DNA of 64,000 bases, from positions 32,682-96,681 of the forward strand of contig NZ_RZNH01000019.1 in the NCBI RefSeq assembly GCF_013141825.1, written 5' to 3'. Positions 15,317-55,948 of the stretch are shown here, in pieces. Origin of the DNA: Marinifilum caeruleilacunae. GTDB lineage: Bacteria > Bacteroidota > Bacteroidia > Bacteroidales > Marinifilaceae. The first letter of the stretch is position 1, and every line of letters begins with the position of its first letter. A program made the translations under genes and the position numbers. The notes under the pieces are model-generated. The model did no database searches and had not been told where the DNA came from. It worked only from the letters and a program-made list of their open reading frames with translations.

Positions 15317-15333
15317 TCTATTTGAATATAAAA

Positions 15334-21602: not shown

Positions 21603-21611
21603 AACTTACCC

Positions 21612-22727: not shown

Positions 22728-22739
22728 ATGGGAAGATGT

Positions 22740-22771
22740 TATGTGGCGTAGTTGTTAGGTCTGCGCCACAT
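22740..22771. repeat. Inverted repeat with GTGGCG/CGCCAC arms
   Basis: ATGTGGCG (22740-22747) pairs with CGCCACAT (22764-22771) across a 16-base loop. The 5' arm with its next bases is the reverse complement of the ACGCCACAT motif at 20750. It lies between the two nuclease genes and may be a terminator or a cassette junction. Confidence 0.4.
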
Positions 22772-22834
22772 ATTACTTTAATGAAGTGCAATTTATTATA
22801 GAATCAATCCACATGAAAATTTAAAAATCAGAGC

Positions 22835-23923: not shown

Positions 23924-23948
23924 GTGAAACAAAACAATTGAATAACAC

Positions 23949-28097: not shown

Positions 28098-31000
28098 ATG
28101 GAATTAAGATTATACAACTATCTGCGTTCGGTTGGTTTAAAAAATACAGACGTAGATTTTAGAGATTCAATTTATCAGGACAGATTAGAAAATTTTGATA
28201 AAAACTTAGGATTAGATAATAAACTATTAGATAAGATTAAAAAATATTTAAAAACGTATAATGAATATTTAAAGTCAAACTTTAAGCCTGAAGTATCATT
28301 AAGATATTATCAAATTTTATCACTCTATTATAGTGAACTTTATTTCAATAAAAGAAATGAGAGTGATTTTATTTTTTCTAAAGACAACTTAGCTTATTGG
28401 ATGGCAACAGGTAGTGGTAAAACTATTGTCATGCACTTAAATATTCTACAATATCTATCTTTCAATAAAAATTTCAAAGATTTTGAAATTATCATGACTA
28501 CTCCAGGGGTGAATCTGATTGAGCAGCATGAAAGAGAGTTAAAACCGTATTTGGATTTCATAAACAAAGGGTACAGAAATACCATTAAACTTATTATTGA
28601 TACTACTCAGGGATTGGTTAGCAAGGCGGAAAAAATACCCGATTATTTTGAAGCTCCTGATACCAAAACATTCAGAAGGTTAATTTTAGTTGATGAAGCT
28701 CACATTGGGCTTGGAACTAACAGTGATATGGGTAAGTTTATGAATTTGAGAAAGAAGCTTAATAAACGAAATAGTTTTCTTTTTGAATATTCTGCCACCT
28801 TTCACAATATCAATACAAAACTTGAAAATGAATATGAAAAGGCAATAGTCTATGATTACAATTACAACTTGTTTTATAGAGATGGTTATGGAAAAGATTA
28901 TTTTTTTCAGCAAATTGGAGATGATATTTTAAATAAAGATATTGATGATAACTTACACCACAATCTGCAAGTAATTAATGAAAAAATTGAACTCTGGAAA
29001 TCAGCAGATTATTCAATTCAGAAAAACTTATTTAAAGCTTCTCATTTTCCAGACAAACCATTAATTGCCTTCATGGGTAATACTGTAAACAATAAGGACA
29101 AATCCGCAAAAAATGAAGATGATGAAGTTTCAGATATTACCAATATTGTTAACTTCTTGGCTAAATTAACAGAAACTGAAAAGAGGAAGTACAAACACCT
29201 TTTCAATGATGAAACCCAAGGAAAACTTACTTTGACTCGAAATCCTGAAACAGATGATGAAATACTACTTTCATATGGAATAGGTGGATACTGGGGAATA
29301 GTGAACGTTGGAAATGGAGCAAAATTTATTAATGACCTTAACAATGACAATGATATTTTTATAAAGAATACGAGAGATCAAATCATTGTTTCTAATATTG
29401 AACGTTACTCTTTTAAAAATATTGATCATAAGTCGTCGCCAATTAACGTATTAATAGGTAGCAGAAAGTTTGCGGAAGGTTGGAATTGCTTTAGGGTATC
29501 AGTTATAGGGCTGATTAATTTGGGAAGTTCCAAGGGAAATAAGATTATTCAAATATTTGGTAGAGGTGTCAGAATTAAAGGATTAAAGAATGATGGTAAA
29601 AGAACGTTTGCAGCTCATTATGAAGATTACTTTAGTCTCGATAAAATAAAAGAAGATGAAAAACTAAGAATGCTCGAAACGCTTTGTGTTTTTTCATTAA
29701 ATAGGACTTATTTGGAAAAGTTTCTTGATACCGTTAATAAAGAGCTTTCAATATCAAAACAATTTGAAGTTGTAGTTAAACCTAGTATAATAAAATTAAA
29801 CAAGGGTAAAGAGCTAGAATTTGAAAAGTTAAAAAAACACTTGCCAATTTTCAAATTATCAAAAACGGAAGTGCACCAAAAAAGAGTTAGCCTTAATGGG
29901 AACAATCAATTTTCAATTGAATACCAACAAAATGGCAATATAGAAAAAGGTGATGTAAATAATTTTTCAATTAAGTTAGATTATAGGACTAAAAAGGATG
30001 AAATTGGCGTTGATATTCTTGGAGAGTTGTCTTCTTTTTATCGAAATTATTCTGTTTTCATTGACCAAAGAAAAATCAATGCAGTGATTTCTGAATTTGA
30101 ATTTGAAAATGGGCTTTTTATAACAACTAAATCAAAAAAGATAACATTTAAAGATATTCTACCTTTTGTTTATGAAGTTAAAATTTCTGAAAAGAAGGAT
30201 AAGGATAAAAAGTCAATTGATCATGCTAATATTGACTTTATTGAAAATGTAGTTAACCAAGTGACCCTTGATTTTTTGAAGAAACTAAAAAATAAAGTAA
30301 ACTGGTATATAAATAACAATAACTACAAATACAATGAAGAACTGAAACAAAGTTCGGAAACTGAAAAAGGAGATTTCATTGAAAGCTACTATATTATAAA
30401 ATCTATTGATACTACTAAGGAAGTAAGTGGTAAAACGAAGTTTAAGTCTGATGCCGAAATTGAAAATGAAATTCAGAATTTTGAGAATACTATTGAAGAA
30501 ATCACTGAACGTTTAAAAATTGAAAATATTGGCAATCACATTTATCATCCTTTATTACGAGAAACAAATAATGTAATCGAAGATGAGAAAGAATTAAAAA
30601 TAACTCCAGATAAATTAAATTCTGGTGAAAAGAAATTCATACAAGATGCAGCACAATTCTTCTCGCATAATATAGATTACAAAGATTTTGATATTTACCT
30701 CATGCGAAATGTAGAATCTTTAAAAAGCATCGGTATTTATCTGAATGATGATTCACAGGTATTTTATCCTGATTTTGTTTTGTGGCTAGTTTCTGCCAAT
30801 ATAACCTATATCAATTTCATTGATCCTAAAGGTCAAATGGGTTTGCAAGATGCTCAAACTTTAAGCATGAATGAAAAGGTTAATATCGCCGATAAGTCTA
30901 AAAATGAAACTTTGGTTTTATTGGAGAAAGAATTAAAGAAAACCCATAACAAAGATTTCATTCTAAATTCCTTCTTATTACTTCGAGATAGTTCGAATAT

Positions 31001-31190
31001 GGGAACAAAAGGGGTGAGCTCAAATCTAGAATGGCAAAAATCAAACATGATTGACAAACATATACTAAGATTAAATTGGCATGCAACTGACGAAAGTGAA
31101 GGTTTTGTAGATGAAAATCTACTTCCTGGAGGGAAGAGTTATCTCGAATTAATGATGGAAAAAACATTGAATCCAGTTGTTCAAGAATAA
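28098..31190 (+). CDS. Type III-like restriction helicase-endonuclease (Res)
   Basis: A 1030-residue SF2 helicase-nuclease. Residues about 90-105 hold Walker A (WMATGSGKTIV); 196-200 the DEAH-box region (LVDEAHIGLG); about 220-230 motif III (EYSATF); and about 450-495 the C-terminal helicase motifs (GSRKFAEGWNCFRV, then QIFGRGVRIKG). The C-terminal domain, about 870-930, has FYPDFVLWL...FIDPKGQMG, a PD-(D/E)XK active site like that of type III Res subunits. It acts with the upstream methyltransferase to cleave unmodified DNA with ATP hydrolysis. The recognition sequence is unknown. Confidence 0.92.
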   Translation: MELRLYNYLRSVGLKNTDVDFRDSIYQDRLENFDKNLGLDNKLLDKIKKYLKTYNEYLKSNFKPEVSLRYYQILSLYYSELYFNKRNESDFIFSKDNLAYWMATGSGKTIVMHLNILQYLSFNKNFKDFEIIMTTPGVNLIEQHERELKPYLDFINKGYRNTIKLIIDTTQGLVSKAEKIPDYFEAPDTKTFRRLILVDEAHIGLGTNSDMGKFMNLRKKLNKRNSFLFEYSATFHNINTKLENEYEKAIVYDYNYNLFYRDGYGKDYFFQQIGDDILNKDIDDNLHHNLQVINEKIELWKSADYSIQKNLFKASHFPDKPLIAFMGNTVNNKDKSAKNEDDEVSDITNIVNFLAKLTETEKRKYKHLFNDETQGKLTLTRNPETDDEILLSYGIGGYWGIVNVGNGAKFINDLNNDNDIFIKNTRDQIIVSNIERYSFKNIDHKSSPINVLIGSRKFAEGWNCFRVSVIGLINLGSSKGNKIIQIFGRGVRIKGLKNDGKRTFAAHYEDYFSLDKIKEDEKLRMLETLCVFSLNRTYLEKFLDTVNKELSISKQFEVVVKPSIIKLNKGKELEFEKLKKHLPIFKLSKTEVHQKRVSLNGNNQFSIEYQQNGNIEKGDVNNFSIKLDYRTKKDEIGVDILGELSSFYRNYSVFIDQRKINAVISEFEFENGLFITTKSKKITFKDILPFVYEVKISEKKDKDKKSIDHANIDFIENVVNQVTLDFLKKLKNKVNWYINNNNYKYNEELKQSSETEKGDFIESYYIIKSIDTTKEVSGKTKFKSDAEIENEIQNFENTIEEITERLKIENIGNHIYHPLLRETNNVIEDEKELKITPDKLNSGEKKFIQDAAQFFSHNIDYKDFDIYLMRNVESLKSIGIYLNDDSQVFYPDFVLWLVSANITYINFIDPKGQMGLQDAQTLSMNEKVNIADKSKNETLVLLEKELKKTHNKDFILNSFLLLRDSSNMGTKGVSSNLEWQKSNMIDKHILRLNWHATDESEGFVDENLLPGGKSYLELMMEKTLNPVVQE

Positions 31191-31720: not shown

Positions 31721-32497
31721 ATGATAGGAGCAATAGCAGGAGATATTATCGGTTCGGTATTCGAATGGAACAATTACAAGGGAATCGACTTTGAATTGTT
31801 TCAAGCGAATTCTGATTTTACTGATGATTCGGTATTAACAATAGCCACCGCTGAAACTTTATTAAAAGGAGATGATTATGCCAATATGTATCAAACCTAT
31901 GGGCGGTATTATCCAAACCGAGGATATGGTGGAAGATTTGCCTCCTGGATATACGATGATTTTGCACAGCCATACAATTCCTGGGGCAATGGATCGGCCA
32001 TGCGTGTAAGTCCGGTGGGGTTTTATTGCAATTCGCTTGATGAAGTGCTTAAAGAAGCCAAAAAATCGGCAGAGGTAACTCATAATCATCCTGAAGGCAT
32101 AAAGGGAGCCCAGGCAACTGCATTGGCAATTTTTCTGGCTCGGTCGGGCAACAGCAAAGAAGCCATACGCGAAATAATTACCAATTTGTTTGCCTACAAT
32201 TTAGATCGTACTTGCGAGCAAATACGTCCCGATTATGAATTTAACGAATCTTGCCAGGGAACGGTTCCCGAGGCTATTATTGCATTTTTGGATAGTAGCG
32301 ATTATGAATCGGCAATTCGTTTGGCCATTTCGCTTGGTGGCGATAGTGATACCATTGCTTGCATTACCGGTAGCATCGCTCAAGCCTACTACAAAGAAAT
32401 TCCTGAGTACATCCTAAACAAGGTAAATGACATTTTGCCTACTGAATTCAAGGAGATCATAGCACAATTCGAAAGAAAAACTTATATCAGCTTGTAA
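31721..32497 (+). CDS. ADP-ribosylglycohydrolase family protein
   Basis: Hydrolyses ADP-ribose from proteins, nucleic acids or small molecules. It is 258 residues. It opens with MIGAIAGDIIGSVFEWNN, the family's first signature, then FTDDSVLTIATAE near residue 35, whose T-D-D binds the binuclear metal centre. The distal signature GGDSDTIACITGSIAQAYY at about 206-224 supplies the remaining metal-binding Asp and Thr. All key residues appear intact. It is followed by a large helical protein and a WYL regulator in the same orientation. Codon and base usage here look closer to the host core than to the AT-rich restriction genes upstream. Confidence 0.93.
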   Translation: MIGAIAGDIIGSVFEWNNYKGIDFELFQANSDFTDDSVLTIATAETLLKGDDYANMYQTYGRYYPNRGYGGRFASWIYDDFAQPYNSWGNGSAMRVSPVGFYCNSLDEVLKEAKKSAEVTHNHPEGIKGAQATALAIFLARSGNSKEAIREIITNLFAYNLDRTCEQIRPDYEFNESCQGTVPEAIIAFLDSSDYESAIRLAISLGGDSDTIACITGSIAQAYYKEIPEYILNKVNDILPTEFKEIIAQFERKTYISL

Positions 32498-34249: not shown

Positions 34250-35101
34250 ATGTCGCAACAAGCTACAATTAAACGTTACTTATTACTGATTGAAAAAGTA
34301 AAAAAAGGGAATTACCCTAGTAAACAGGAACTGATTGATTTGTTAAACGATCAGGGATTGAAATGTTCCGAACGGACTTTTCAACGTTCATTGGAAAGTA
34401 TCCGGAACGAATTTGGTGTTGAGATAGAATACAATACCATTCGTCGGGGATATTTTATTAATGATGACATTAGTGTTGATTACGAGCCATTTATCCGCTT
34501 TTTGGACATTGCCCAATCGGCCAATACCTTAATCGAGACGCTTAGCGATGGTCGGGAAGCTTTAAAATATATCCATTTTGATACCAGCGCCAACATGATG
34601 GGCATACATTATCTGCAACCCTTATTACGGGCAGTAAAAGACAATTTACAAGTACGCATAAGCTATTCTCATTTTGAAGAGAAGGATGAAAAAACCTTCG
34701 TATTAAATCCTGAATTGCTGAAGGAATATATGAATCGTTGGTATGTTACCGGCCATGTTGATTATACCGATGGTGTAAGAATTTATGCTTTAGATCGGAT
34801 CAAAAATATTGAATTGCTGCCTGAAACTTTTGAGCGAAAAATGGGAAGTGCCGAAGATGTTTTTGGCGATATTATTGGTGTAAACTTTTCGGGAGAAGAG
34901 GTCAAGAGAATTGTGCTGTCTTTTACTCCCTGGCAAGGCAATTACATTCGCACCTTACCTATGCACCCTTCTCAGGAAGTTTTAATCGATAATGATGAAG
35001 AATTCAGAATTGCCATTAGAGTTAAACCTAATTTTGAATTATGGCAACGCATTCAAATGTATGGCGATCAGGTGAAGGTGTTAGAGCCGGCAGATTTGTA
35101 G
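34250..35101 (+). CDS. WYL-domain transcriptional regulator
   Basis: A 283-residue regulator. Residues 1-70 form a DeoR-type HTH (LIDLLNDQGLKCSERTFQRSLESI). The WYL domain lies at about 115-200, with VRISYSHFEEKDEKTFVLNP and a diagnostic RWYVTGHVD strand, where V replaces the Leu of 'WYL'. The C-terminal WCX extension spans about 215-280 (VKRIVLSFTPWQGNYIRT). WYL domains bind nucleic acids or nucleotide ligands and often control phage-defence genes. It closes the ADP-ribosylglycohydrolase operon and converges with the minus-strand gene ending at 35111. Confidence 0.92.
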   Translation: MSQQATIKRYLLLIEKVKKGNYPSKQELIDLLNDQGLKCSERTFQRSLESIRNEFGVEIEYNTIRRGYFINDDISVDYEPFIRFLDIAQSANTLIETLSDGREALKYIHFDTSANMMGIHYLQPLLRAVKDNLQVRISYSHFEEKDEKTFVLNPELLKEYMNRWYVTGHVDYTDGVRIYALDRIKNIELLPETFERKMGSAEDVFGDIIGVNFSGEEVKRIVLSFTPWQGNYIRTLPMHPSQEVLIDNDEEFRIAIRVKPNFELWQRIQMYGDQVKVLEPADL

Positions 35102-38574: not shown

Positions 38575-39018
38575 ATGGTAATTAAAGGAAGAAAGAATCA
38601 GTCCGTTGCAATCAATATTTTGGGATATCAATTTCCTGATATCAAAAACGAGAAAAGCTATGATGCCAATTGGCTACAGATTAAGATTCGTGTGGATGGT
38701 TTATGTGGTGCCTGGCAAAAAACAGATCCAGCATTGCTAACCTGGGAGGTAGATGAATTAATTGAATGGATGCATGATTTATCGAACGACAATTGCACAA
38801 TGGACTGCTTGTGCTTTACCGAACCCAATATGGTTTTTCAGTACTTGGGTATGGAAGAAAAACAGTACAAAATCAGAATTCATTTCGAATTGGAATTTCG
38901 AAATCCTCAACTGCCAAAAGATGAAGATTGCTACATAGACTGTCTGTATAGCAAGGAGAAACTTTTAGGTCTTTGCTTCGATTTAGAAGAAGAGTTACAA
39001 TACTATCCAAAACGATAA
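38575..39018 (+). CDS. WapI-like immunity-type protein
   Basis: A 147-residue protein. The pattern DANWLQIKIRVDGLCGAWQK, then DPALLTWEVDELIEWMHDL, and later EPNMVFQYLG with KIRIHFELEFRNPQL, matches the order of conserved hydrophobic and Trp positions I associate with the WapI-type immunity family. No toxin gene is visible nearby, so it would be an orphan. It follows the previous gene by 10 bases and precedes the esterase by 5. Confidence 0.55.
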   Translation: MVIKGRKNQSVAINILGYQFPDIKNEKSYDANWLQIKIRVDGLCGAWQKTDPALLTWEVDELIEWMHDLSNDNCTMDCLCFTEPNMVFQYLGMEEKQYKIRIHFELEFRNPQLPKDEDCYIDCLYSKEKLLGLCFDLEEELQYYPKR

Positions 39019-39023
39019 ACAAA

Positions 39024-39575
39024 ATGATGCTTTACATTCACGGATTCAATTCAAGGGGAGAAGGAGAAAAATACAATAAACTGAAAACTCTCTTTCCTGA
39101 TGTTCCAATTTACTCACCAACTTATGATAGTTCCAATTTTGATACAATTGATCAACTTTTGCATGGAATTGAATTAGATGAGAATACCATGTTCATTGGT
39201 TGCTCACTTGGGGGCTACCTGGCTTTATATTTTGCCTGTAAATATAAAGTGAAGGCCGTTTTATTGAATCCGGTGACTAATCCCATTAAACAGCTCACAA
39301 ATCTTTTGGAATTGCAAAAGGGTGAATTAAATAAAACGGACTACCATCATTGGAAAGCAAATATTCAAAAACTTGATAAATTCAGAGTCAATGAAATAGG
39401 CAGTACTTCACTCAGTATTTTTGTGAATAAGGATGATGATGTTATTGACTGCAAGGATACCATAGATTTTTTTCAGGATAAAAGAAGTGTGGAAGTATTT
39501 GAATCTGGCGGACATCGATTTTCTGACCTGGAAAAAATTAAAAAGGATATAGAGTTTCATTATTATCAGATATAA
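39024..39575 (+). CDS. YqiA/YcfP-like alpha/beta-hydrolase
   Basis: 183 residues from the ATG at 39024, five bases after the upstream stop; the longer frame begins with TTG inside the previous gene. It opens MMLYIHGFNSRGEG (oxyanion-hole strand), has the nucleophile elbow GCSLGGYLAL (Ser near residue 61), a probable acidic residue in NKDDDVID, and the catalytic His in ESGGHRFSDLE. Length and order match the UPF0227/YqiA esterase group. The substrate is unknown. It is the last gene of the plus-strand trio. Confidence 0.85.
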   Translation: MMLYIHGFNSRGEGEKYNKLKTLFPDVPIYSPTYDSSNFDTIDQLLHGIELDENTMFIGCSLGGYLALYFACKYKVKAVLLNPVTNPIKQLTNLLELQKGELNKTDYHHWKANIQKLDKFRVNEIGSTSLSIFVNKDDDVIDCKDTIDFFQDKRSVEVFESGGHRFSDLEKIKKDIEFHYYQI

Positions 39576-39777: not shown

Positions 39778-41634
39778 ATGCCTCACACAATAGATGTTCA
39801 CAAAGAGTTTGCCTCCTTCTTTAAGGATGAAATGCTGGAGACCGCAGCTTATTTAGTTTCAAAGAAACTGGAAGAAGGACATACTTGTATAAATATAGAA
39901 GACTTCAATAGTAAGCTGGCTCAAATAGAAAGGAATGAAGGTTCTCTTAAACCTATTGATATTGATGCATTAAAGAGAAGTCACTTTGTGAGTGAAAAAG
40001 CAGGGGAAATACAACCTTTTATTCTGCATGATGGTAACTTTTATTTGCATCGCTATTATAGTTACGAAACAGAAATCATTGAAAAGATTGAGCAGATGAT
40101 TGCTTGTGAAAATGATTCTGATTTTAATGAAGAACTCTTGCTAAATCATAGAGATTTTATTCTTGATTTGTTTTCGGACCACAAGGTTTATAAAGAGTTC
40201 AGTAAGGAAGAGAATATTAATTGGCAATTGGTTGGCGCTATAACGGGCATGCTTTCTAATTTTTCCATTATTACGGGAGGACCGGGAACTGGAAAGACAA
40301 CTGCAGTAGCTAAACTATTGGCCATTTTATACAACATTAAACCAGATATAAAAATAGCACTTGCAGCGCCTACGGGAAAAGCAGCGGCACGCATGAAAGA
40401 ATCCTTAATGGCTGCTGTTATTCGAGGAGAGAGTGGCAATAGGCTCATACGAGAGCTGAATGATGATATGCAAAGCTTCACTAAGCTTACTGCAAGTACA
40501 TTGCATCGACTGTTGGGATATCAGCCAGGCACTCATTATTTTAAGCATGATGAGAATAATCCCCTTGATTATGATGTGCTTATTGTAGATGAGAGTAGTA
40601 TGATCGGGGCAAGTATGATGGCAAAGTTATTGAATGCGATAAAACCCACCTCAAAACTAATCATGCTTGGAGATAAAGACCAGTTGGCTTCGGTTGAGGC
40701 AGGTAGTATTTTTGGAGACATCTGTTTAACTCAGAAAGACAAGATGAACAAATTGAGTATGGAGCGAGTTGAGCTAATCAACAGCTACATTACTGAAGCA
40801 GATGCAGGATTAGATCAAGATGATTTGCTACAGGAAGCAATGAATAATAAACTGCAGCAGCATATAATTGAATTAAAAAAAAGCTGGCGATTTAAAAGTA
40901 CAGAAGGGATTGGTGAGTTTAGTCATGCTGTTATTAATGGTTCTTTAACAGATGAATTAATCACCAAACCAGTATCTCAGGAAGGTCAATATGTAAAAGT
41001 TTGCAATGATTATGAATCGACAGACTTAACTGATTTGATGAATGGATTTAAAGCTTACATTAAAGAGGAAGATATAGTACAAGCTTTAATGAAATTAAAC
41101 CAGGTTCGGTTTTTATGTGCCATTCGTTCAGGAAGATATGGTGTGCAGCATTACAATAGTTTGATTGGTTCTTACCTGGAAAATGAGGGGTGCTTAAATC
41201 CTTCAAGCACCTTTTTCGAAAATCAGCCCATCATGATAACAAAGAATAATAAAGAGCACAACTTATTTAATGGTGATATTGGCCTAATCAGGAAAGATGT
41301 ATCAAGGGATAAGTTGATGGCCTATTTCGAAGATGGAGATGATGAATCAGGCTATAGGGCCATTCCAACCACCTATTTATCGGAGTTCACAACCGTTTTT
41401 GCAATGACAATTCATAAAAGTCAGGGATCGGAGTTTGAGCATGTGGGGATTGTTTTACCAGACGATGAAAATACGCCTTTGCTAACCCGTGAGTTAATTT
41501 ATACTGCTATTACCAGGGCTAAACAGCGAGCCATTATTTTTTCCTCTAATGAAGTATTAAAAGCTGGCGTAGTTAGGCAAGTTGAAAGAGCTTCTGGAAT
41601 CACTAATCGTTTTAATAAAACACAAAGCAAATAA
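39778..41634 (+). CDS. recD: Exodeoxyribonuclease V alpha subunit (RecD)
   Basis: The 5'-3' SF1B helicase motor of RecBCD. 618 residues from the ATG at 39778, close to the 608 of E. coli RecD. Residues about 1-150 form the N-terminal domain that contacts RecC. Walker A GGPGTGKT is at 167-174, followed by TASTLHRLLG, Walker B LIVDESSMIG, GDKDQLASVEAGS, an arginine-bearing RAIPTTYLSEF region, motif V/VI MTIHKSQGSEFEHV (about 543-556) and YTAITRAKQRAII. All helicase motifs look intact. It is first in a recD-recC-recB operon with 2-base gaps, a gene order different from E. coli (recC, then ptr, recB, recD). Confidence 0.95.
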   Translation: MPHTIDVHKEFASFFKDEMLETAAYLVSKKLEEGHTCINIEDFNSKLAQIERNEGSLKPIDIDALKRSHFVSEKAGEIQPFILHDGNFYLHRYYSYETEIIEKIEQMIACENDSDFNEELLLNHRDFILDLFSDHKVYKEFSKEENINWQLVGAITGMLSNFSIITGGPGTGKTTAVAKLLAILYNIKPDIKIALAAPTGKAAARMKESLMAAVIRGESGNRLIRELNDDMQSFTKLTASTLHRLLGYQPGTHYFKHDENNPLDYDVLIVDESSMIGASMMAKLLNAIKPTSKLIMLGDKDQLASVEAGSIFGDICLTQKDKMNKLSMERVELINSYITEADAGLDQDDLLQEAMNNKLQQHIIELKKSWRFKSTEGIGEFSHAVINGSLTDELITKPVSQEGQYVKVCNDYESTDLTDLMNGFKAYIKEEDIVQALMKLNQVRFLCAIRSGRYGVQHYNSLIGSYLENEGCLNPSSTFFENQPIMITKNNKEHNLFNGDIGLIRKDVSRDKLMAYFEDGDDESGYRAIPTTYLSEFTTVFAMTIHKSQGSEFEHVGIVLPDDENTPLLTRELIYTAITRAKQRAIIFSSNEVLKAGVVRQVERASGITNRFNKTQSK

Positions 41635-41636
41635 AA

Positions 41637-44600
41637 ATGGCATTACATTTATATTCATCAAACAGGATTGAGGAACTATCAGCTATTTTTAGTGAAAAGA
41701 TAAAGAACAAAACAAGTTGGAACCAGGTTTCGCAAATTATTGTACAAGCAGAAGGTATACAAAAGTGGTTGGTAAAAGAAACGACCTCAAAAAATAAAAT
41801 TTTTGCCAATTATGAATTTTATAGTCCAGATGGATTTATTGGTAACGTAAACCAACTGTTAATCAATTATGGGAATAGTTATTTTTCAACCGAAAATATA
41901 AAGTGGAAAGTTTTTATTTATTTGAAAGATGCAGATTTTGTAACGCAATTTCCAAAAGTTTCTAATTATTATGCAGAAGATGATATTAAACGGATTCAAT
42001 TGGCAGGGAAAATTGCTGATTTGTTCGATCAATATCAGGTTTACCGTCCCAATATAATCGCAGCTTGGAATGATAATATAGAGATTGATACAACTTTTGA
42101 TGATGATTTCAACAAACAGGAAAGATGGCAGAAGTGGCTTTGGCAAAAATTGAAATCAGAAAGCAAAGGAAAATACGATCAACTTCAACTAAAGCAAGGT
42201 TTATTGCAAAAACTGGAATCTGAGGATTTTCAAAACAAATTAAAACAGAATCATCCTGAAATCCACCTTTTCGGAATTGCCATTCTGTCTAATTATCATT
42301 GGGAGGTTTACCAGAAATTGGCATTTACTATCGATGTACACATTTACCTAACGAGTCCTGCAAAAGGTGCGGATTGGTATCAGAATTTGGCATCAAACCA
42401 CGAAAATGATTTATTGGGAAGTTGTAAAGGTGTGAATGTTAATTTACATCAATTACTTCCAATGGAAAAGGCCCAACGATATTATAAGGAGGCCGAAGAT
42501 ATTAGTTTGTTGGCAACTATTCAGAATGACATTTTGAATAATACCCAGATTGGAATACGATCATACGATACATCTATTCTGGATACATCCATACAAATTG
42601 CTTCGTCCTATACACCCGTGCGCGAGGTAGAAGCACTTTATAACCATCTTTTACATGAATTTGAGAAGAATCCGGAACTTAAGGGAGCCGATGTGTCAGT
42701 TCAAATGACGGATGTAAATCTTTATGCACCTCTGATTAAAGCGGTGTTTGATAATGCTCCAAAGAAGATTCCTTACTTGATTTGCGACCAGTCTTATTCG
42801 GAGGGAGATTCTTTGATTAAAGCTTTGGATATATTCATAAATCTGCATCACTCTAATTTTAAAGCTGAGAATGTATTGCAGATGTTTGATTTTAAGGCTG
42901 TCCGAAAACGTTTTGGCATAACGGATGTAGAATTGATACGGGAAATCATTGCCGATGCCAATATTCGTTATGGTATTGAAGGAAGTATAGATGATGATAC
43001 TTACTTGTTTAGTTGGAAGCATGGAATCAAGAAACTTGTGTTAGGTTACGCGTTAAAAGGAGGTGCTGAATATAAACTAGATGATACGGAGTTATTTCCC
43101 TGTGATTCATTGGAAGCTAACGAGGCCTTAAGCATTTTTAAAATCAAAGCATTTGCTGAGACAATATTTGCTTTATATGAACACTCCCAAGGTGAAAAAT
43201 CCGTTGAAGAATGGAAAGACTACTTGTTAAATCATGTATTTCCTAATTTGTTCGATCTGGATGAGATATACGATGATGAGTTGGATTATATCTATAAGAA
43301 ATTAGAAAATTTAAGCTCGATCACCATTGATATGGAAGAAAACATCTCCTTCCGAGTATTCCAGGAGGGATTAATGAATCTGCTGAACTCAGAAACCATT
43401 AACAGTGTTTATGCAAGTGGATTGGTAACCTTCAGCTCAATGATGTCGGTGCGATCTATACCTTTTAAGCATATTGCGGTCTTGGGCTTAAATTCCGATG
43501 AATTTCCGCGTAAGCAAAAAGCTTTAGGTTTCGACCTAATGGCCATTCAACCCATGGAGAACGATCGAAACATAAAGGACAATGATAAACACTTGTTTTT
43601 AGAAACCATTTTATCCGCAAAAGAACAGCTCTACTTTAGTTATATTGGTTCGAGCATTAAAGATAATTCCGAAATTCCTCCTTCTTTGTTGATTGAAGAA
43701 TTGGAAGATTACATTATTTCAGGAACTGGTAAAAAGGACTGGTTTGAGGATAAAATCAAGTATAAACACCCTTTGCATGCTTCCAGTAAACAGTATTTTG
43801 TAGGACAAAAGTTTTTTACCTATCTAGGGCAGACAGTCGAAACGGAAACTTCAGAAGTACTTTCTGCAAATTTAACGAAGGAAGAGACTGATCTTAGTTT
43901 CGATGAAATTAGTTTGAATGATCTAATCAGTTTTTATAAGGATCCTTTTAAATGGTATTACAATAAGACTTTACAAATTTATTATTCAGACGACGCGATA
44001 CTATTGCCTGAAGAAGAGCCATTTGAATTGGATCATCTTCAAAAGTGGTCGTTAAAAAATGAACTGGTTCAATTGGCGGTTGAAAATGAAGAACATTATC
44101 TCAAACGAAGAAAAAATGATGGTTTAATCCAGTTAGCCAATATGGCTGAAGCAGAAATCAGTTTAGAGAAAGAAGCTATTGAAAGTTTGAAAGTTGAGTA
44201 TTTAAAACATGTGAATGGAAAGCCTTTAGAAGAAGCCATCGCCTTAAAAATTGGCGATAGTGTGTTAAGAGGTAAAATCTCAAATATTTTCGGGGAAGCT
44301 CATTTGCATTATAATGTATCAGGAGTAAATAGTCAGCCAAAATATTTAGTAGAATTATTCATTAAGCATTTGGCCTATAAGGTGACCAATACGAGCGCCA
44401 AATCAATATTTATCAGTAATGACTATAAATTCTCATTAAATGAAGATTTTATTAGTGTTGAAGAATCGAAAGAAATTTTAGAGCAATTACTAACCATTTA
44501 TAAGCAAGGGCATAATGAAATTATACCTTTTACTCCCCAGGCTGGATTATTATTGATTCATCAATTGTATCACGACAGAAAAATTGTTGAAAAAGATATC

Positions 44601-44813
44601 GCAATTCAAAATGCATTAATAAATATTTGTGATAGATACCCGAGTGAATACATTGTCAAAGAAGCTTCATTAGGATATTTTGAATTTCTATTATCGGATA
44701 AAGATTCATTAGGCAAAGCTCATAAAAAGAAGTTAGATCGAATGCAAGATATACTCTTTCAATTAAGTGAAATATTGTTCTGTAAATTAAGCACCCTAAT
44801 CTCAACACTATAA
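41637..44813 (+). CDS. recC: Exodeoxyribonuclease V gamma subunit (RecC)
   Basis: The Chi-recognition and scaffold subunit. 1058 residues compared with 1122 in E. coli. It opens with LHLYSSNRIEELSAIFSEKI, the usual RecC start, and has IIVQAEGIQKWLVKE, HLFGIAILSNYHWEVYQKLA, SYTPVREVEALYNHLLHEFE and GLVTFSSMMSVRSIPFKHIAVLGLNSDEFPR, all in the order expected for RecC's inactivated helicase fold. The C-terminal third corresponds to the dead-nuclease domain. It begins 2 bases after recD and ends 2 bases before recB. Whether it recognises the E. coli Chi or another sequence cannot be read. Confidence 0.93.
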   Translation: MALHLYSSNRIEELSAIFSEKIKNKTSWNQVSQIIVQAEGIQKWLVKETTSKNKIFANYEFYSPDGFIGNVNQLLINYGNSYFSTENIKWKVFIYLKDADFVTQFPKVSNYYAEDDIKRIQLAGKIADLFDQYQVYRPNIIAAWNDNIEIDTTFDDDFNKQERWQKWLWQKLKSESKGKYDQLQLKQGLLQKLESEDFQNKLKQNHPEIHLFGIAILSNYHWEVYQKLAFTIDVHIYLTSPAKGADWYQNLASNHENDLLGSCKGVNVNLHQLLPMEKAQRYYKEAEDISLLATIQNDILNNTQIGIRSYDTSILDTSIQIASSYTPVREVEALYNHLLHEFEKNPELKGADVSVQMTDVNLYAPLIKAVFDNAPKKIPYLICDQSYSEGDSLIKALDIFINLHHSNFKAENVLQMFDFKAVRKRFGITDVELIREIIADANIRYGIEGSIDDDTYLFSWKHGIKKLVLGYALKGGAEYKLDDTELFPCDSLEANEALSIFKIKAFAETIFALYEHSQGEKSVEEWKDYLLNHVFPNLFDLDEIYDDELDYIYKKLENLSSITIDMEENISFRVFQEGLMNLLNSETINSVYASGLVTFSSMMSVRSIPFKHIAVLGLNSDEFPRKQKALGFDLMAIQPMENDRNIKDNDKHLFLETILSAKEQLYFSYIGSSIKDNSEIPPSLLIEELEDYIISGTGKKDWFEDKIKYKHPLHASSKQYFVGQKFFTYLGQTVETETSEVLSANLTKEETDLSFDEISLNDLISFYKDPFKWYYNKTLQIYYSDDAILLPEEEPFELDHLQKWSLKNELVQLAVENEEHYLKRRKNDGLIQLANMAEAEISLEKEAIESLKVEYLKHVNGKPLEEAIALKIGDSVLRGKISNIFGEAHLHYNVSGVNSQPKYLVELFIKHLAYKVTNTSAKSIFISNDYKFSLNEDFISVEESKEILEQLLTIYKQGHNEIIPFTPQAGLLLIHQLYHDRKIVEKDIAIQNALINICDRYPSEYIVKEASLGYFEFLLSDKDSLGKAHKKKLDRMQDILFQLSEILFCKLSTLISTL

Positions 44814-44815
44814 GC

Positions 44816-47800
44816 ATGGCTAAAACTAAATTTGATGTAATAAAGGTAGCCTTAAAAGGCTCTAACTTAATTGAAGCCAGTGCTGGAACAGGCAAAACCT
44901 ACTCTATTGCTATTTTGGTGATTCGTTTGGTTGTGGAAAAGGGAATCGAGCTAAAGGAAATCTTAATGGTTACCTTTACCAAGGCAGCGGTTGCTGAGTT
45001 GGAAGTTCGGATTCGTAAATTTATTAGAGAAGCTTATTCTTATACAAGTCAAGGTGTTGAAATTGATGAATCGATAAGGACAATTGTTGATAATGGGATT
45101 AAACAATTTGGCAAAGAAGAGGTCTTGGCACTCCTAATGAAAGCTAGGAGGCAATTGGATGAAACATCGATTTTTACTATCCATAGTTTTTGTCAGAAAA
45201 CTTTATCTGAATTTGCTTTTGAAACAGGACAGGCTTTTAATAGTGATGTAATAGAAGATGAGGCTGTTTTAATAAACGAAGTAGCTGGAGAATATTGGAG
45301 GCAGCAAATCACCACCTTGGATAGTGATTTATTGACTTTTTTGCTTAAGAATGGTTTGTCAAAAAATCAATTGGTCAATGTGGTGTCAATGGCAAAAAGG
45401 GGTAAGTTATTTATTTATAATACTGATTGTTCTGTTGATGTCTATTGGTCTAGGAAGGAAAAGAATGAGGAGAAATGTCAGAAGGCTTTGGATCAGTTTA
45501 ACAATGAGTTTTCAAATTCACCAGAACGAACCTTGAGTAATATTGGAGAGAAAGGATATGCCTTTAATGCATTTGGACATTTGCTTGAGGATGCTGATGC
45601 TTTTAGACAAACACTAATAGAAAAACAAGATAAAGGGTATACTCAGAAAAAATTCCCTAATCTGCTTCAGTTGGCCATTGAAGTTGATGAGTTAGAAAAT
45701 GCAAATAATGAAATAGGACAAAGCTGCATCAATTTTCTTTATGGAGAAGCTATAGCTTATTGCGATGCTGAAATCCAAAATAAGAAAAAGGAGCAAGGCC
45801 TTTTTTCTTTTGATGATTTGATCAATAAGTTACATCAGACCATTCCATCAGAATCGTTGCAAGCGGCTGTTAGGAAAAAATACAAAGCGGTTTTTATTGA
45901 TGAGTTTCAGGATACCGATCAGAAACAGTATGAAATATTCGATACCTTCTTTAATCAACATTCTATTCTGTTTTATATAGGTGATCCAAAGCAGTCCATC
46001 TACAGTTTTAAGGGAACTGATTTAGATACCTACCTTGAAGCGGCTACAAAAGTGGATGCCTCCTATACAATGAGTAAAAACTACCGTTCTACAGAAGCAT
46101 ATAATAACGCAATGAACAAATTATTTACCAGCATTGATAACCCATTTTACGATGAAAGAATTGACTATGAGATTGTAAGTGCAGGAAAAGATTTAAAAGA
46201 GATTGAAAAAGAAGATGATATTGTCGATCCTCTTTCGATTTATGATTGTAAAAATAATGGTGAACTTATAGAGCAGACGGTTAATCAGGTAAAAGATCTA
46301 TTGCTTGAGAATTATCAAATTGAAGGAAGAAAGGTTAAGCCTTCGGATATTGGTATACTGGTTCGGGCAAATAGTAAAGGGACAGAAATAAAAAATGAAC
46401 TCAATAAATTTGGGATTCCCGCCATAACCATTGATGATAGCCGTGTAATGGAAAGTGAACAAAGCATATTGTTGCTGTATTTACTAAAGGCCATGTTTGA
46501 GCCAAATACCAATACGATCAATAGAGTTTTATTAACTTATCTGACCAATAAAACAAAGGATGATTTGTTAAAGTTGGATATCGAAGCGGATATAGAATTC
46601 TTTAGAGAACTTAATCAAACCTGGACTAGCAAGGGAGTTTTTAGTGCCATTAATCGTTTTATGGGCAGATACAATACCTTGGACCATATTCAAACAAGAA
46701 TTCCTACAGATGCCGAACGAATTATTACCAACCTGTTGCAAATCAATGAGATTCTTCATAATAAGGAGAATCAATCCAAATCTTCTCCTAAAGCGCTGAT
46801 TCATTGGTTGGAGTTTGCCATTTCCGGGGCAGAAGAAATTGGTGAATTTACTCAAAGATTAGAAAACGACGAGGATGCCGTTAAAATTGTAACCATTCAT
46901 AAAAGTAAAGGTTTGGCCTATAATATTGTTATTGCTCCGTATCTGGATTTAAAATCGGAGCACAACAACAGATGGGATTTTATAGAATACAAAGATCCTG
47001 AACTTAACCAATATTGTTTTTCTGCAGAGGTAGTAGACAAAGCTCGTCGATTGTATTCGGAACAGGCTGAGAGAGAGAATAGACGTTTAATTTATGTTGC
47101 TTTGACCAGAGCGGTTTATATGGGTGTCATCCTACATAAGTCTAAGGACAAATGCGGGATAAAGGAATTTATTGATGGAGCTATATCAAAGAATTATTTT
47201 GCATATAAGATAAATCTTGAACGTGATAAACGGCGTTATAACGAAAAAAATGAAGAGGTAGATAAAACTCCAAAAAGTTTCTCTGGTTCGGATATAGAAA
47301 GCAAATGGAGTAATTATAGCTTTAGCATGCTCTCAAAATATGAACCCCACGATAAGCCGGAACGAATTGAGCTTATTGATGAATATGATCGATTTATTTT
47401 TGATGAGTTTCCAAAGGGAGCAATGGCAGGAAATTTTATGCATTACCTTTTTGAAAATTCAGACTTTACAGGTGATGATTTTAGCCTTGCTATTTCAAAA
47501 GGATTGAACCGATATAAATCAGTCTTTGGTTTAGGTGATGTTGATCTGGAAATTAAGATTTCAGAAATGTTATCTCATGTTCTTAGTACAGAGATACCTT
47601 CAGAAAATCCTTTTGTATTGTCACATATTCAGGAAAATAACAAACTTCCGGAAATGGAATTCAATTTTAAGATGAATGATTTTTCAACAGGAAAACTACA
47701 TCGCCTGGTTCCTCATATTAATTTGGAAAGAGAAGGAGATATTCAAGGAATGATGACTGGTTTTATCGATTTATTATTTGAACACAATGGTAAATTCTAC

Positions 47801-48091
47801 ATTCTGGATTGGAAATCAAATTATCTTGGTAACTCATTAGAGTATTATACTCCAGATAAGCTGGAACATGCTATGCAAGAAAGTAACTATCACTTACAAT
47901 ATTTGATTTATACCCTTGCTACAAAATTGTATTTGAAAAACTGCATGCCTGATTTTGATTACAATGATCACTTTGGAGGTATTATCTATGTTTATGTAAG
48001 AGGGTGTCGAAAAGAGGGTAATTCTGGGATCTATTTTACTAAGCCTAAAGAACAGATGATAGAGGAGTTGGAGAAGGTACTCATAAATTAA
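44816..48091 (+). CDS. recB: Exodeoxyribonuclease V beta subunit (RecB) with intact nuclease
   Basis: The 3'-5' SF1A helicase and the nuclease of RecBCD. 1091 residues compared with 1180 in E. coli. Walker A ASAGTGKT is at 21-28; FTKAAVAELEVRIR and IHSFCQKTLSEFAFETG follow; Walker B DEFQDTDQ is at about 362-369; KIVTIHKSKGLAYNIV and LIYVALTRA are the C-terminal helicase motifs. The nuclease domain has Asp985 in GFIDLLF and Asp998/Lys1000 in DWKSN, matching E. coli D1067, D1080 and K1082, so it should be active. It ends the operon. Confidence 0.95.
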   Translation: MAKTKFDVIKVALKGSNLIEASAGTGKTYSIAILVIRLVVEKGIELKEILMVTFTKAAVAELEVRIRKFIREAYSYTSQGVEIDESIRTIVDNGIKQFGKEEVLALLMKARRQLDETSIFTIHSFCQKTLSEFAFETGQAFNSDVIEDEAVLINEVAGEYWRQQITTLDSDLLTFLLKNGLSKNQLVNVVSMAKRGKLFIYNTDCSVDVYWSRKEKNEEKCQKALDQFNNEFSNSPERTLSNIGEKGYAFNAFGHLLEDADAFRQTLIEKQDKGYTQKKFPNLLQLAIEVDELENANNEIGQSCINFLYGEAIAYCDAEIQNKKKEQGLFSFDDLINKLHQTIPSESLQAAVRKKYKAVFIDEFQDTDQKQYEIFDTFFNQHSILFYIGDPKQSIYSFKGTDLDTYLEAATKVDASYTMSKNYRSTEAYNNAMNKLFTSIDNPFYDERIDYEIVSAGKDLKEIEKEDDIVDPLSIYDCKNNGELIEQTVNQVKDLLLENYQIEGRKVKPSDIGILVRANSKGTEIKNELNKFGIPAITIDDSRVMESEQSILLLYLLKAMFEPNTNTINRVLLTYLTNKTKDDLLKLDIEADIEFFRELNQTWTSKGVFSAINRFMGRYNTLDHIQTRIPTDAERIITNLLQINEILHNKENQSKSSPKALIHWLEFAISGAEEIGEFTQRLENDEDAVKIVTIHKSKGLAYNIVIAPYLDLKSEHNNRWDFIEYKDPELNQYCFSAEVVDKARRLYSEQAERENRRLIYVALTRAVYMGVILHKSKDKCGIKEFIDGAISKNYFAYKINLERDKRRYNEKNEEVDKTPKSFSGSDIESKWSNYSFSMLSKYEPHDKPERIELIDEYDRFIFDEFPKGAMAGNFMHYLFENSDFTGDDFSLAISKGLNRYKSVFGLGDVDLEIKISEMLSHVLSTEIPSENPFVLSHIQENNKLPEMEFNFKMNDFSTGKLHRLVPHINLEREGDIQGMMTGFIDLLFEHNGKFYILDWKSNYLGNSLEYYTPDKLEHAMQESNYHLQYLIYTLATKLYLKNCMPDFDYNDHFGGIIYVYVRGCRKEGNSGIYFTKPKEQMIEELEKVLIN

Positions 48092-48803: not shown

Positions 48804-48911
48804 AAGATCTAAAACTTAAACTCTAGAGAATTGAAAAGGAATTGATGAGAAAAAATTATCGAACTTGTTGTTGATAACTTCCTTTAAAAGCTGTTGATTA
48901 AAGATAGTTTG

Positions 48912-49043
48912 GTGTAATCCTAGCGAAGAAAAAGTGTAATCCTAGCGAAATTTCGAAAAATCTTTATACGCTGATAATCAGAGGTGTTCTGATTTGGTGG
49001 TGTAATCCTAGCGAAGAAAAAGTGTAATCCTAGCGAAGAAAAA
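48912..49043 (+). repeat. Iteron array: four direct 22-bp repeats
   Basis: GTGTAATCCTAGCGAA begins at 48912, 48934, 49000 and 49022. Three copies extend to the identical 22-mer ending in GAAAAA. Spacings are 22, 66 and 22 bases, all multiples of 22, so every copy faces the same side of the helix. The design is that of iterons bound by a replication initiator or a cooperative regulator. No Rep-like protein is recognised in the element. Confidence 0.85.
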
Positions 49044-49140: not shown

Positions 49141-49702
49141 ATGTTAATAAATCTAATCATGATGAGATTTGATTTGTTGTTCATGTAGAATCTTTTCCTG
49201 TTTCGTTTGGTATTTGATTTTTTATATAGGGGAAAGGAATATTAGAAGCGTTTTTGAAGCGATTTGAGGGTTATTTAAGCTAATTATTATAGTTTTTGGT
49301 AATCTCATATTTAGTATTTGGAGATAATTGCTTAGAGCTCTTCTTTTTTGGTTTATAAAAATGTTGGATTTTTAAAACATAATAGTTCTGGGAATTTTCT
49401 AAAAATCAATAGGTGAACTTGGGTTGTAATAGTGTGATTTTAAGAGAGATAGTTTGTTAGGTGTATTAAATCAGTTTGTTAGTTAATTATATTGTTCGAT
49501 TTCGCTAGGATTACACCAAATTCCAAATAGAATGTCATTAAATTGGAGAGATGATTTGGCAGTTAATTTTAAATTAAAAAATGAATGGACTTCTTGGATG
49601 CTAAGGTTTACTAACGAAATTTGATTAGTTTAGAATAGGATTTTAGTAATTAAAAATCTCTACTAAAATGAGATATTCAACACATCGAAATAAACTAATT
49701 AA
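49141..49702. other. Non-coding region with one inverted iteron
   Basis: No ORF is supported. TTCGCTAGGATTACAC at 49501-49516 is the exact reverse complement of the 16-bp iteron core, placed about 480 bases from the array and 187 bases before the metallophosphoesterase gene. The remainder is AT-rich without recognised structure. Confidence 0.7.
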
Positions 49703-53040: not shown

Positions 53041-55371
53041 ATGCTTAATATGAATAAAACTACTCTTAAAAGCACCTTAGTATACTTGATGTGTGTGTCA
53101 CTTTTTGTTGGTTGTAGCAAGGACGATAATGAAGAAGGAGAAAGTCCTGTTTTTAATATTGTTAAAGAAAAAGTATCAGGAAATATTCAAAAGGGACCAT
53201 ATATTAATGGTACATCTATTGCTATGTCTGAATTGGATGAACATATGAGTCAAACTGGAAAAGTTTTTAATTCGCAGATAATTGATAATAAAGGATCATT
53301 TGAAATTAAAAATATCGAGTTATCATCTCAATATGTACAATTTAAGGCAGATGGATATTATTTTAATGAAGTAGAAGGGGATAAATCAGTTTCGCCATTA
53401 ACCCTATATGCACTATCAGATATTAAAGATAAATCTTCAATCAATGTAAATGTTATCACTCATCTCGAAAAAAGTAGGGTTGAATATCTGATTGAAAATG
53501 ATTATTCCTTTGAGGTAGCAAAGGATTCTGCCCAAAAAGAAATCTTTAATATTTTTGGATTTACTACAAATAATAGAAAGAATTCAGAAATTTTGGATAT
53601 TTCAAAAAATGATGATGCGAATGCGATCCTACTGGCTATTTCAGTAATTCTACAGGGAAATTATTCTGTTGCGGACTTAACAGAGAATCTTGCAAATATT
53701 AGTTCAGATATAAGAGAAGATGGAATATTGAATAACGAAGATATTAAATCGTCATTATATAATTCAACTTCGTTATTAAACCTTGGTGAAATAAGAACTA
53801 ACCTTGAAAAAAGATATATGGATCTTGGTTTTAATGCATCCATTCCGGATTTTGAAACTAAAATTTCAGAATATTTAATAAGTCATAAACCTTTTGATAT
53901 AGAGGCTTTAGTAAAGGATGTTACATGTAATGGAAGTGAAGATGGTAGCATTAGTTTAACCATTAATGAGGGAACCGCCCCTTTTTCTTATTTATGGTCT
54001 AATGGTGCAACATCAAAAGATATTTCTGAATTATCTCCAGGAACTTACAATGTATTCATTACTGATGCCAAAGGCTACAAGATGAATAAAAGAGATATAG
54101 TTATTACTGAACCTATGCCTCTTGCCATAGATTTATTAGCAACCCATGTTACCACTCCAGGAGGATCAGATGGAGAGATTAAATCAACAGTTTCAGGAGG
54201 AACAAGTCCATATTCTTATACTTGGTCTAATGGTGAAACGACTGAGAATTTATCTAATATTTCAAGTGGTATTTATTCAATAACAATTGTTGATTTCAAT
54301 AAATGTGAAGTAGTTGATGAAGTTGCTGTTCAGGAGCCTGTTAATCTTGAATATGTCAAAACTGATATTAGCTGCAATGGAAGTGGTAATGGAGAAATAG
54401 ATATGACTATTACAGGAGGTGTTACCCCTTATGTTATTAGCTGGTCAAATGGCAGTTCTTCTGAAGATATTTCTAATCTGGAAGCTGGAAGTTATGTTAT
54501 AACCGTTGAAGATAAATTAGGATTTACTGTTTCAGAAACAATAGAAATAAATGAGCCAGAGCCAATTGAAATACAAATCGAGGTTGTCAATACTACCTTG
54601 TCAGGTGATGATGGAGAAATAAATATTGAAGTTAGTGGAGGTACTCCACCGTACAATTATTCATGGTCGAATGGTGAATCCACTCAAGATATAAAGAATT
54701 TACAAGTTGGTTTTTATACTTTAACAATAACAGATGAAAATCAATGTACCTTAAATAAGAAAATCGGAGTTGCTGGTACTATAGCTGATGTTGATGGAAA
54801 TCAATATGAAACTGTTGTAATAGGTTCTCAAATTTGGATGGCAGAAAATTTAAAAACTACTCATTACAGAAATGGAGATCCAATACCTACGGTTGATAAT
54901 TGGATAAATCATACTTCAGGTGCGTATTGTTACTATGATAATGACGAAAGTAATGCTGATATATATGGAGCTCTTTATAACTATTATGCGATAGATGATG
55001 AAAGAAATATTTGTCCCGAAGGTTGGCATGTTCCTTCTGATGAAGAATTTAAAATGTTAGAAGAAACTCTTGGGGGCGAAATGGTTGCGGGAGGAGAAAT
55101 GAAGGAGGAGGGACTACTGCATTGGGATTCTCCAAACGAAGGAGCAACAAATAGTAGTGGTTTTACGGCATTACCTGCAGGTTGTCGCTGGACAAATCCT
55201 GACAATCCATTTCAAGGGCTTGGAGAAAGGGCTTGTTTTTGGACTAGTACTAAAGGTGAACATGGAGATATATTAGCTTGGAGTCATAGTTTAAATAAGA
55301 ATGGAATAGATGTTTTTATCATGCAAGATTCTAGAGATATAGGATTTTCTTTAAGGTGTATAAAAGATTGA
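53041..55371 (+). CDS. Surface lipoprotein with SprB repeats and C-terminal FISUMP domain
   Basis: A 776-residue outer-surface lipoprotein. The signal peptide ends in a lipobox (LFVGC, Cys near residue 25). An alternative ATG lies three codons in. Residues about 290-580 hold four SprB-type repeats, each with the hallmark (S/W)YxWSNGxxxxDISxLxxGxYxxxITD (for example YLWSNGATSKDIS, YTWSNGETTENLS, ISWSNGSSSEDIS, YSWSNGESTQDIK). Residues about 582-776 are a Fibrobacter succinogenes major-domain (FISUMP): GSQIWMAENLKTTHYRNGDPI, CPEGWHVPSDEEF and a final GFSLRCIKD. Probably an adhesin or surface-binding protein carried as element cargo. A hairpin follows. Confidence 0.93.
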   Translation: MLNMNKTTLKSTLVYLMCVSLFVGCSKDDNEEGESPVFNIVKEKVSGNIQKGPYINGTSIAMSELDEHMSQTGKVFNSQIIDNKGSFEIKNIELSSQYVQFKADGYYFNEVEGDKSVSPLTLYALSDIKDKSSINVNVITHLEKSRVEYLIENDYSFEVAKDSAQKEIFNIFGFTTNNRKNSEILDISKNDDANAILLAISVILQGNYSVADLTENLANISSDIREDGILNNEDIKSSLYNSTSLLNLGEIRTNLEKRYMDLGFNASIPDFETKISEYLISHKPFDIEALVKDVTCNGSEDGSISLTINEGTAPFSYLWSNGATSKDISELSPGTYNVFITDAKGYKMNKRDIVITEPMPLAIDLLATHVTTPGGSDGEIKSTVSGGTSPYSYTWSNGETTENLSNISSGIYSITIVDFNKCEVVDEVAVQEPVNLEYVKTDISCNGSGNGEIDMTITGGVTPYVISWSNGSSSEDISNLEAGSYVITVEDKLGFTVSETIEINEPEPIEIQIEVVNTTLSGDDGEINIEVSGGTPPYNYSWSNGESTQDIKNLQVGFYTLTITDENQCTLNKKIGVAGTIADVDGNQYETVVIGSQIWMAENLKTTHYRNGDPIPTVDNWINHTSGAYCYYDNDESNADIYGALYNYYAIDDERNICPEGWHVPSDEEFKMLEETLGGEMVAGGEMKEEGLLHWDSPNEGATNSSGFTALPAGCRWTNPDNPFQGLGERACFWTSTKGEHGDILAWSHSLNKNGIDVFIMQDSRDIGFSLRCIKD

Positions 55372-55830: not shown

Positions 55831-55921
55831 AAAGCGGCCACGACATAAATGCCATAACCGCCTTGATTTGAGGGTGGAGAGTACCGGAATCGAACCGGTG
55901 ACCTTTTGACTGCCAGTCAAA
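55831..55921. repeat. Right attachment site, overlapping the intact tRNA-Ala
   Basis: The 91-bp partner of 15090-15180. Bases 55875-55921 are the 3' portion of the functional tRNA-Ala gene; the remainder is its downstream flank. Confidence 0.93.
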
Positions 55922-55948
55922 CGCTCTAGCCAACTGAGCTAACCCCCC
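55875..55948 (-). tRNA. tRNA-Ala(GGC)
   Basis: A complete 74-nt cloverleaf on the minus strand. The acceptor stem is GGGGGGT / ACTCTCC with a G3-U70 pair, the alanine identity element, and discriminator A. The anticodon stem TTTGA / TCAAA carries loop CTGGCAG, giving anticodon GGC. The T arm is ACCGG-TTCGATT-CCGGT. CCA is not encoded. The 3' 47 nt are duplicated at 15134-15180 by the element. It is adjacent to the right attachment site, so this copy was restored when the element integrated. Confidence 0.96.

Follow-up and report, generated by a model that had tools for sequence, protein, structure and literature searches.

The window analysed here is a stretch of 64,000 nucleotides from Marinifilum caeruleilacunae (order Bacteroidales; contig NZ_RZNH01000019.1, positions 32,682 to 96,681), and it contains a recD-recC-recB operon (recDCB, 39778-48091) located on a genetic element of 40.8 kb that is inserted at a tRNA-Ala gene. 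RecBCD loads on DNA ends, RecB and RecD unwind the DNA, and degradation continues until a Chi signal is reached. The same biochemical task is performed by AddAB, which consists of two subunits with two nucleases, and the host of the element has its own AddAB. The operon encodes a complete RecBCD-type helicase-nuclease that is probably active, judging from the motifs it retains. The interpretation favoured here, with modest confidence, is that recDCB constitutes accessory cargo of an integrative mobilizable element (IME) and adds the degradation of DNA ends, directed against invading DNA, to the restriction and other defence genes of the element, acting beside the AddAB of the host.

The three genes are located on the forward strand in the order D-C-B; all three frames are intact and gaps of 2 bases separate recD from recC and recC from recB. 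recD (39778-41634) encodes 618 amino acids (aa) from an ATG at 39778, which is preferred to the alternative TTG six bases upstream (39772); recC (41637-44813) and recB (44816-48091) encode 1058 and 1091 aa, respectively. Comparisons with the NCBIfam profiles gave 475.5 bits for recD against TIGR01447 (cut-off 310.15) and 698.5 bits for recB, composed of a helicase and a C-terminal nuclease, against TIGR00609 (cut-off 696.05). recC reached 573.1 bits against TIGR01450, 9.8 below the equivalog cut-off of 582.9, and its Pfam matches are Exonuc_V_gamma (173 bits, cut-off 25) and RecC_C (121.1 bits, cut-off 22.6). The Escherichia coli proteins match the recD and recC products with E values of 8.7e-87 and 2.3e-80, respectively, and the closest solved structures for all three subunits are E. 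coli RecB, RecC and RecD, with alignments spanning most of the length. The motor motifs SAGTGKT (Walker A) and DEFQDTD are present in RecB, and GGPGTGKT, VDESSM and TIHKSQG in RecD. The nuclease residues of RecB are kept as well (H876, D985, D998 and K1000, aligned with H956, D1067, D1080 and K1082 of E. coli RecB). No PDDEXK_1 match was found in recC at an E value of 0.001, that is, RecC is not replaced here by a nuclease protein of the AddB type, as it would be in an AddAB enzyme. Full-length recB, recC and recD, together with the motor motifs and the nuclease residues, place the operon on sequence grounds in the RecBCD (exonuclease V) family, and the completeness, gene order and intact motors and nuclease claimed in a preliminary description of this DNA were confirmed by profiles, motifs and alignments. 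When RecD and RecB were scanned with PADLOC 2.0.0, helicase-type models of other systems (PDC-S68, GajB, RTasHel and others) were among the matches listed, which for RecB are the best 25 of 45. In the long intergenic stretch 3' of recB, GTGTAATCCTAGCGAA is present in four copies forming two close pairs (48910-49043), and an exact inverted copy follows about 0.5 kb further on (49499-49518). These repeats might serve in regulation, replication or recombination.

The element is bounded by a direct repeat of 91 nt made up of the 3' part of tRNA-Ala and downstream sequence. The left copy (attL) lies at 15090-15180, and the right one (attR, 55831-55921) overlaps the intact tRNA-Ala(ggc) gene used as integration site, which ARAGORN located on the reverse strand (55873-55948). 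Both copies are identical at 89/91 positions and no third copy was found within the window. The two differences (T...A at 15143 and 15157 of attL, C...G at 55884 and 55898 of attR) are situated around the T-loop of the tRNA, the pairing of which looks to be kept in both copies when read by eye. On the forward strand the element encodes a tyrosine integrase of 433 aa (15322-16623; Pfam Phage_int_SAM_5 and Phage_integrase), a NikA/MobC-like mobilization accessory protein (17888-18220; NikA-like 55.2 bits, MobC 30.9 bits) and a MobA/VirD2-type relaxase (18217-19401; Relaxase 131.8 bits). No families of type IV secretion systems were detected among the main open reading frames (ORFs) of the element (ORFs of at least 80 aa, without those overlapping larger ones). 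Regarding the insertion site, attL matches the unoccupied site in the congeners over 98 nt, and in three of five of them (G001, G003 and G004) the left flank joins directly through tRNA-Ala to the right flank, the tRNA-Ala site being uninterrupted in loci L023, L024 and L027; in the other two the contig stops inside the repeat (G002) or shortly before it (G005). An integrase, att repeats at a tRNA gene, an empty site in relatives and a relaxase for which no mating-pair formation genes were found identify the element, by its gene content, as an IME. Its GC content is 0.325, against 0.366-0.406 in the 2-kb window steps lying wholly outside it. The earlier proposal that the operon is carried by a mobilizable element is thus supported by integrase, MobC, relaxase, att repeats and empty site alike.

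A search for addAB in the host, suggested in the preliminary description, was positive: AddA (1086 aa, C168; a UvrD-type helicase-nuclease) and AddB (C185) are encoded at two separate places. Besides, RecBCD is not the usual enzyme of the order Bacteroidales. RecC was counted by PF04257, and AddB-type matches by PF12705 at an E value of 1e-12 or better, which is a proxy, as this domain is also present in other proteins (at this threshold 8 of 14 control genomes gave matches, E. coli being negative); all counts include the host. recC was found in three of the 58 genomes of a first search, in none of five congeners (one of them only 80 % complete) and, by protein search, in 11 of 395 class members (eight strong and three weak matches). 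Within the order, recC is present in 8/393 genomes and an AddB-type match in 366/393. Two situations had been named beforehand as contrary to a cargo role, and neither was encountered: the operon is absent from the congeners, three of which show the empty site, and RecBCD is not the normal core enzyme of the order, a sister clade (see below) being the one that seems to carry recDCB chromosomally. An AddB-type match accompanies recC in five of the eight recC-positive members of the order (G000, G706, G740, G774 and G810) and is missing from the other three; in this order recBCD therefore appears mostly as an addition to AddAB and perhaps sometimes as its replacement.

To collect relatives of the operon, an alignment of six RecC sequences was used to scan named genomes, the best 80 loci of 579 confirmed candidates being kept, and a RecB+RecC tree was built with FastTree from the 74 of 89 loci in which both proteins were long enough, 15 being dropped. 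The window belongs to a clade of five (clade A, support 1.0) together with L068 (a Bacteroidales metagenome-assembled genome, MAG), L069 (a Salinivirgaceae MAG), L070 (Plebeiobacterium sediminum) and G016. Clade A and six more loci form an 11-member clade (support 0.983), whose sister (support 0.942) contains 42 loci, mostly from Chitinophagales and Sphingobacteriales. All five clade A genomes have an AddB-type match at an E value of 1e-30 or better. PF12705 was tested on 31 genome handles (G133 and G465 share hit coordinates and were taken as one genome), and a strong match was obtained in six, namely the five clade A genomes and that of L101; eight others have a weaker PDDEXK_1 protein and 17 have RecB-level hits only or none, most of these 17 belonging to the sister clade.

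In G016, recDCB is located on a chromosome stretch that has on one side an integrase adjoining an mnmE-like gene and on the other the conjugation genes T4CP and TraG, with a relaxase adjacent; the same stretch carries TmtA, a full-length type IIG restriction-modification (R-M) enzyme and a DrmD-like helicase. This locus is read from its genes as an integrative conjugative element (ICE) with a defence island, in which a long direct att repeat was sought and not found and the right end is not fixed. On its left side, similarity to the congeners G832, G026, G831 and G827 stops, to within one base, where the mnmE-like gene ends at its 3' side (G827 showing a short match to the integrase further on), similarity to G828 runs 74 bases past the gene, and G830 continues into a related integrase region. 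As for the other members, L069, on a contig of 14.9 kb, shares ADP-ribosylglycohydrolase, DUF7663 and UPF0227 genes with the window, and WYL and NERD-helicase genes are found near recBCD in L068 and L070. Taken together, these close relatives, of which one lies on a second mobile element that also bears defence genes, point to recBCD as accessory equipment rather than housekeeping here. In a second clade, the neighbours of recBCD include a DrmMII/type II-like methyltransferase and, by eye, a Vsr-like gene in G740, and an ADP-ribosylglycohydrolase in G706.

Several side results were obtained with these loci. The genus of G016 varies at the 3' side of the mnmE-like gene (L161 7933-9330; L165 969-2399), and the recBCD island of L068 is also near an mnmE-like gene, as read by eye. 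A neighbour of the L068 recBCD genes (291 aa) was considered as a recombinase and rejected, as it gave an HNH match. The recC search gave six matches among 'Phages' records, some of them resembling bacterial contigs under phage names, and 40 among 'Plasmids' records, a figure that is not a count of plasmids because several of these records are chromosome-sized.

If recDCB acts as defence cargo, the element RecBCD would unwind incoming linear DNA of phages or plasmids and destroy it from the ends, also where that DNA has been cut by the type III restriction enzyme of the element, while the repair of the host cell would already be served by AddAB. As an enzyme distinct from AddAB, it might also stay active when AddAB is inhibited by a phage. 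Break repair through RecA loading would come along with the enzyme. RecBCD is described as degrading phage DNA devoid of Chi, and phages as producing inhibitors of it (PMC8791490; PMC9836394). There are, on the other hand, several points that do not fit this interpretation well. The preliminary description had the operon beside restriction genes, and what holds is that both are on the same element, but the type III R-M genes end 8.6 kb before recD and recBCD forms its own gene run. Mobility is documented in only two of the five clade A members, and neither an integrase nor a relaxase turned up in the seed search around L068 and L070. The G810 operon is in a repair setting, being directly preceded by genes that by eye resemble sbcD-sbcC (L156 870-13446). 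The viral contigs of IMG/VR gave no recC relative at the sensitivity used. Lastly, the three recC-positive genomes of the order without an AddB-type match (G042, G569 and G603, which are 88, 82 and 95 % complete) indicate that RecBCD can perhaps assume the core role.

Among the alternatives, recDCB could be a backup insensitive to the anti-AddAB proteins of phages, so that a foreign RecBCD would escape the inhibitor and restore both end degradation and break repair; its advantage would then be the escape and not a partnership with restriction. RecBCD and AddAB differ in their subunits, all five clade A genomes combine the operon with an AddB-type match, and phage-made inhibitors of RecBCD are documented (PMC9836394; PMC8791490). 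Nevertheless, no sequence feature separates this backup function from defence cargo proper, and as the principal role it is regarded as unlikely. Comparably improbable is that the operon is plain repair cargo with little defence role, improving double-strand-break repair or recombination of the host or of the element, for instance when restriction has damaged the cell's own DNA or while the element becomes established. Repair is the canonical function of the family, and the SbcCD-like genes preceding recDCB in G810 (L156) and the 3/8 recC-positive genomes without an AddB-type match agree with it; however, the host already has AddAB, and restriction, PDDEXK_4, TmtA or NERD-helicase genes are present on four of the five clade A stretches (window, G016, L068 and L070). 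Finally, the operon would hardly be a chromosomal recDCB segment acquired by the element and retained by chance without a selected function: the sister clade, with few mobile markers near its recDCB, is a possible source, but about 8.3 kb of intact frames remain, and every one of the five clade A members retains the RecB motifs SAGTGKT, DEFQDTD, GFIDL and LDWKSN and the RecD motifs GGPGTGKT and TIHKSQG despite subunits diverged to 37-75 % identity to those of the window. As a separate observation, the sbcD-sbcC-like genes and recD-recC-recB of G810 make up a possible five-gene repair cluster.

A mobile RecBCD in an AddAB host also raises the question of how a foreign RecBCD is tolerated by a cell that lacks a matching Chi. 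The Chi sequence of E. coli has no copies in the element. Octamers with Chi-like properties (at least 6 copies, a 3-fold excess over expectation and a 3-fold strand bias) number 42, where 100 order-3 simulated sequences gave 29.4 on average and 43 at most, and those with at least 8 copies number 13 (simulated mean 5.0, maximum 12); coding bias is uncontrolled in this filter and the genes of the element are mostly on one strand. The two 20-kb parts of the element have 24 and 12 such octamers, and eight other stretches of 20 kb have from 7 to 15. No single octamer stands out among the candidates; the excess is at most mild and coding bias could explain it. In RecC, the ADLFDQY stretch is kept, and the residues aligned with T40, Q44, L64 and W70 of E. 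coli RecC, which are Chi-pocket positions, differ. A more speculative and rather doubtful proposal is that this RecC reads a Chi that is unselected in the chromosome of an AddAB host, so that the enzyme would be mainly an unrestrained end-degrading weapon, made on demand upon the appearance of foreign DNA ends and kept in check by WYL-type regulators, possibly through sensing of single-stranded DNA. If this were true, a mobile RecBCD would rewrite what is self and non-self in its host.

Related to this regulation, a WYL-domain regulator (34250-35101, forward strand; Pfam WYL, WCX) and an ADP-ribosylglycohydrolase-family gene (31721-32497, forward strand; Pfam ADP_ribosyl_GH) are encoded upstream of the operon. 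Among 29 genomes, 10 of 66 WYL copies lie within 20 kb of recBCD (0.63 expected), as do 4 of 24 ADP-ribosylglycohydrolase copies (0.20 expected), the clustering of genes in defence islands being uncontrolled in both comparisons; two doubtful contigs, of G459 and G467, were recognised by their length as not being the recBCD contigs. The P values are not clean, because the idea arose from G000, G450 and G452, and G386, G471 and G462 had been seen beforehand; only G706 and G740 are new for the WYL association, and 21 of the 29 genomes, without WYL within 20 kb of recBCD, speak against the pattern. The WYL genes suggest regulation, the association being post hoc. Besides that of the window, WYL genes near recBCD are spread over several clades (L062 15176; L068 6414 and 18238; L070 19337 and 21632; L087 6461; L127 4834; G706:C2:342870; L188 7923-8825). 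ADP-ribosylglycohydrolase genes at this distance were found in 4/9 Bacteroidales genomes and 0/20 others (in addition to the window, L069 653-1495, L070 20349-21455 and L157 7230-8828).

The proteins of the operon are of a known family, and RecBCD itself, ICEs and IMEs that carry defence genes, and recBCD on plasmids are each already known. The window enzyme shares with E. coli RecBCD the three subunits, both motors and a single RecB nuclease with identical catalytic residues. In E. coli the gene order is recC-ptrA-recB-recD and the enzyme is core; the window copy has the order D-C-B and is mobile and accessory. In comparison with the AddAB of the host, encoded by addA and addB at two separate places, recDCB is one operon. 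The order D-C-B is also that of the sister clade (for example Chitinophaga, Pedobacter and Mucilaginibacter), in whose flanks (up to 10 kb) seed hits were lacking for ADP-ribosylglycohydrolase, UPF0227, NERD and relaxase; integrase-type hits were obtained in L062, L077 and L080, and WYL hits in L062, L078, L083, L087, L088, L094 and L127. RecBCD on plasmids is represented by the recCBD genes of a mobilizable plasmid of Methylomonas sp. DH-1, Shewanella baltica pSbal01 and Gordonia p174, which differ from the window in the order C-B-D, in belonging to other phyla and in not being IMEs, two of the three plasmids having been typed as non-mobilizable. In the Methylomonas plasmid a WYL gene is located directly 5' of recC (WYL-recC-recB-recD), which may be compared with the WYL gene of the window element.

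The defence cargo known from ICEs and IMEs (R-M, TmtA, DISARM-like systems) resembles the neighbourhood of recDCB in type, but consists of specialised systems, and such systems are contrasted with RecBCD as a core system in PMC8791490. A genome survey gives RecBCD and AddAB together in only 16 of 5563 genomes (PMC6452273), and a Stenotrophomonas survey lists RecBCD as an anti-phage system present in all strains (PMC11680222). Full-text literature searches found no description of a mobile accessory RecBCD in Bacteroidota bearing AddAB; within the literature searched, recBCD as a mobile accessory of AddAB hosts, found repeatedly in one clade, is apparently new. RecBCD serves as the usual example of a core system that has defence as a side-effect, and a mobile RecBCD in AddAB hosts would let defence be separated from repair, since RecBCD could be removed and AddAB repair would stay. 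A further question is whether enzymes that degrade DNA ends are spread as defence cargo, as R-M systems are.

The remaining cargo of the element comprises further genes, of which those preceding recD are on the forward strand. The type III R-M pair (mod 24879-28088, res 28098-31190; Pfam N6_N4_Mtase and ResIII) was also recognised by PADLOC (MTase_III 584.5 bits, REase_III 156.1 bits). It is preceded by genes for a GYF_2 protein, two PDDEXK_4 nucleases (PADLOC PDC-S26) and a partner of 220 aa (20745-24611; Pfam, PADLOC), a candidate mobile defence module of its own. The four proteins are 58, 48, 85 and 80 % identical to proteins of G016, where they adjoin recBCD; this counterpart lies at L040 2046-9891, with two GTPase-like genes interposed. 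Because the GYF_2/PDDEXK_4 proteins reach 85 % identity, whereas RecB, RecC and RecD of G016 are only 45, 37 and 47 % identical to those of the window, the sequences suggest that both modules moved separately. Directly 5' of recD is a UPF0227 gene (38973-39575), also found near recDCB in L069 and in the genome of L070 (L168). At the opposite end of the element, beside attR, a protein of 776 aa with SprB repeats and a Fib_succ_major domain is encoded at 53041-55371.

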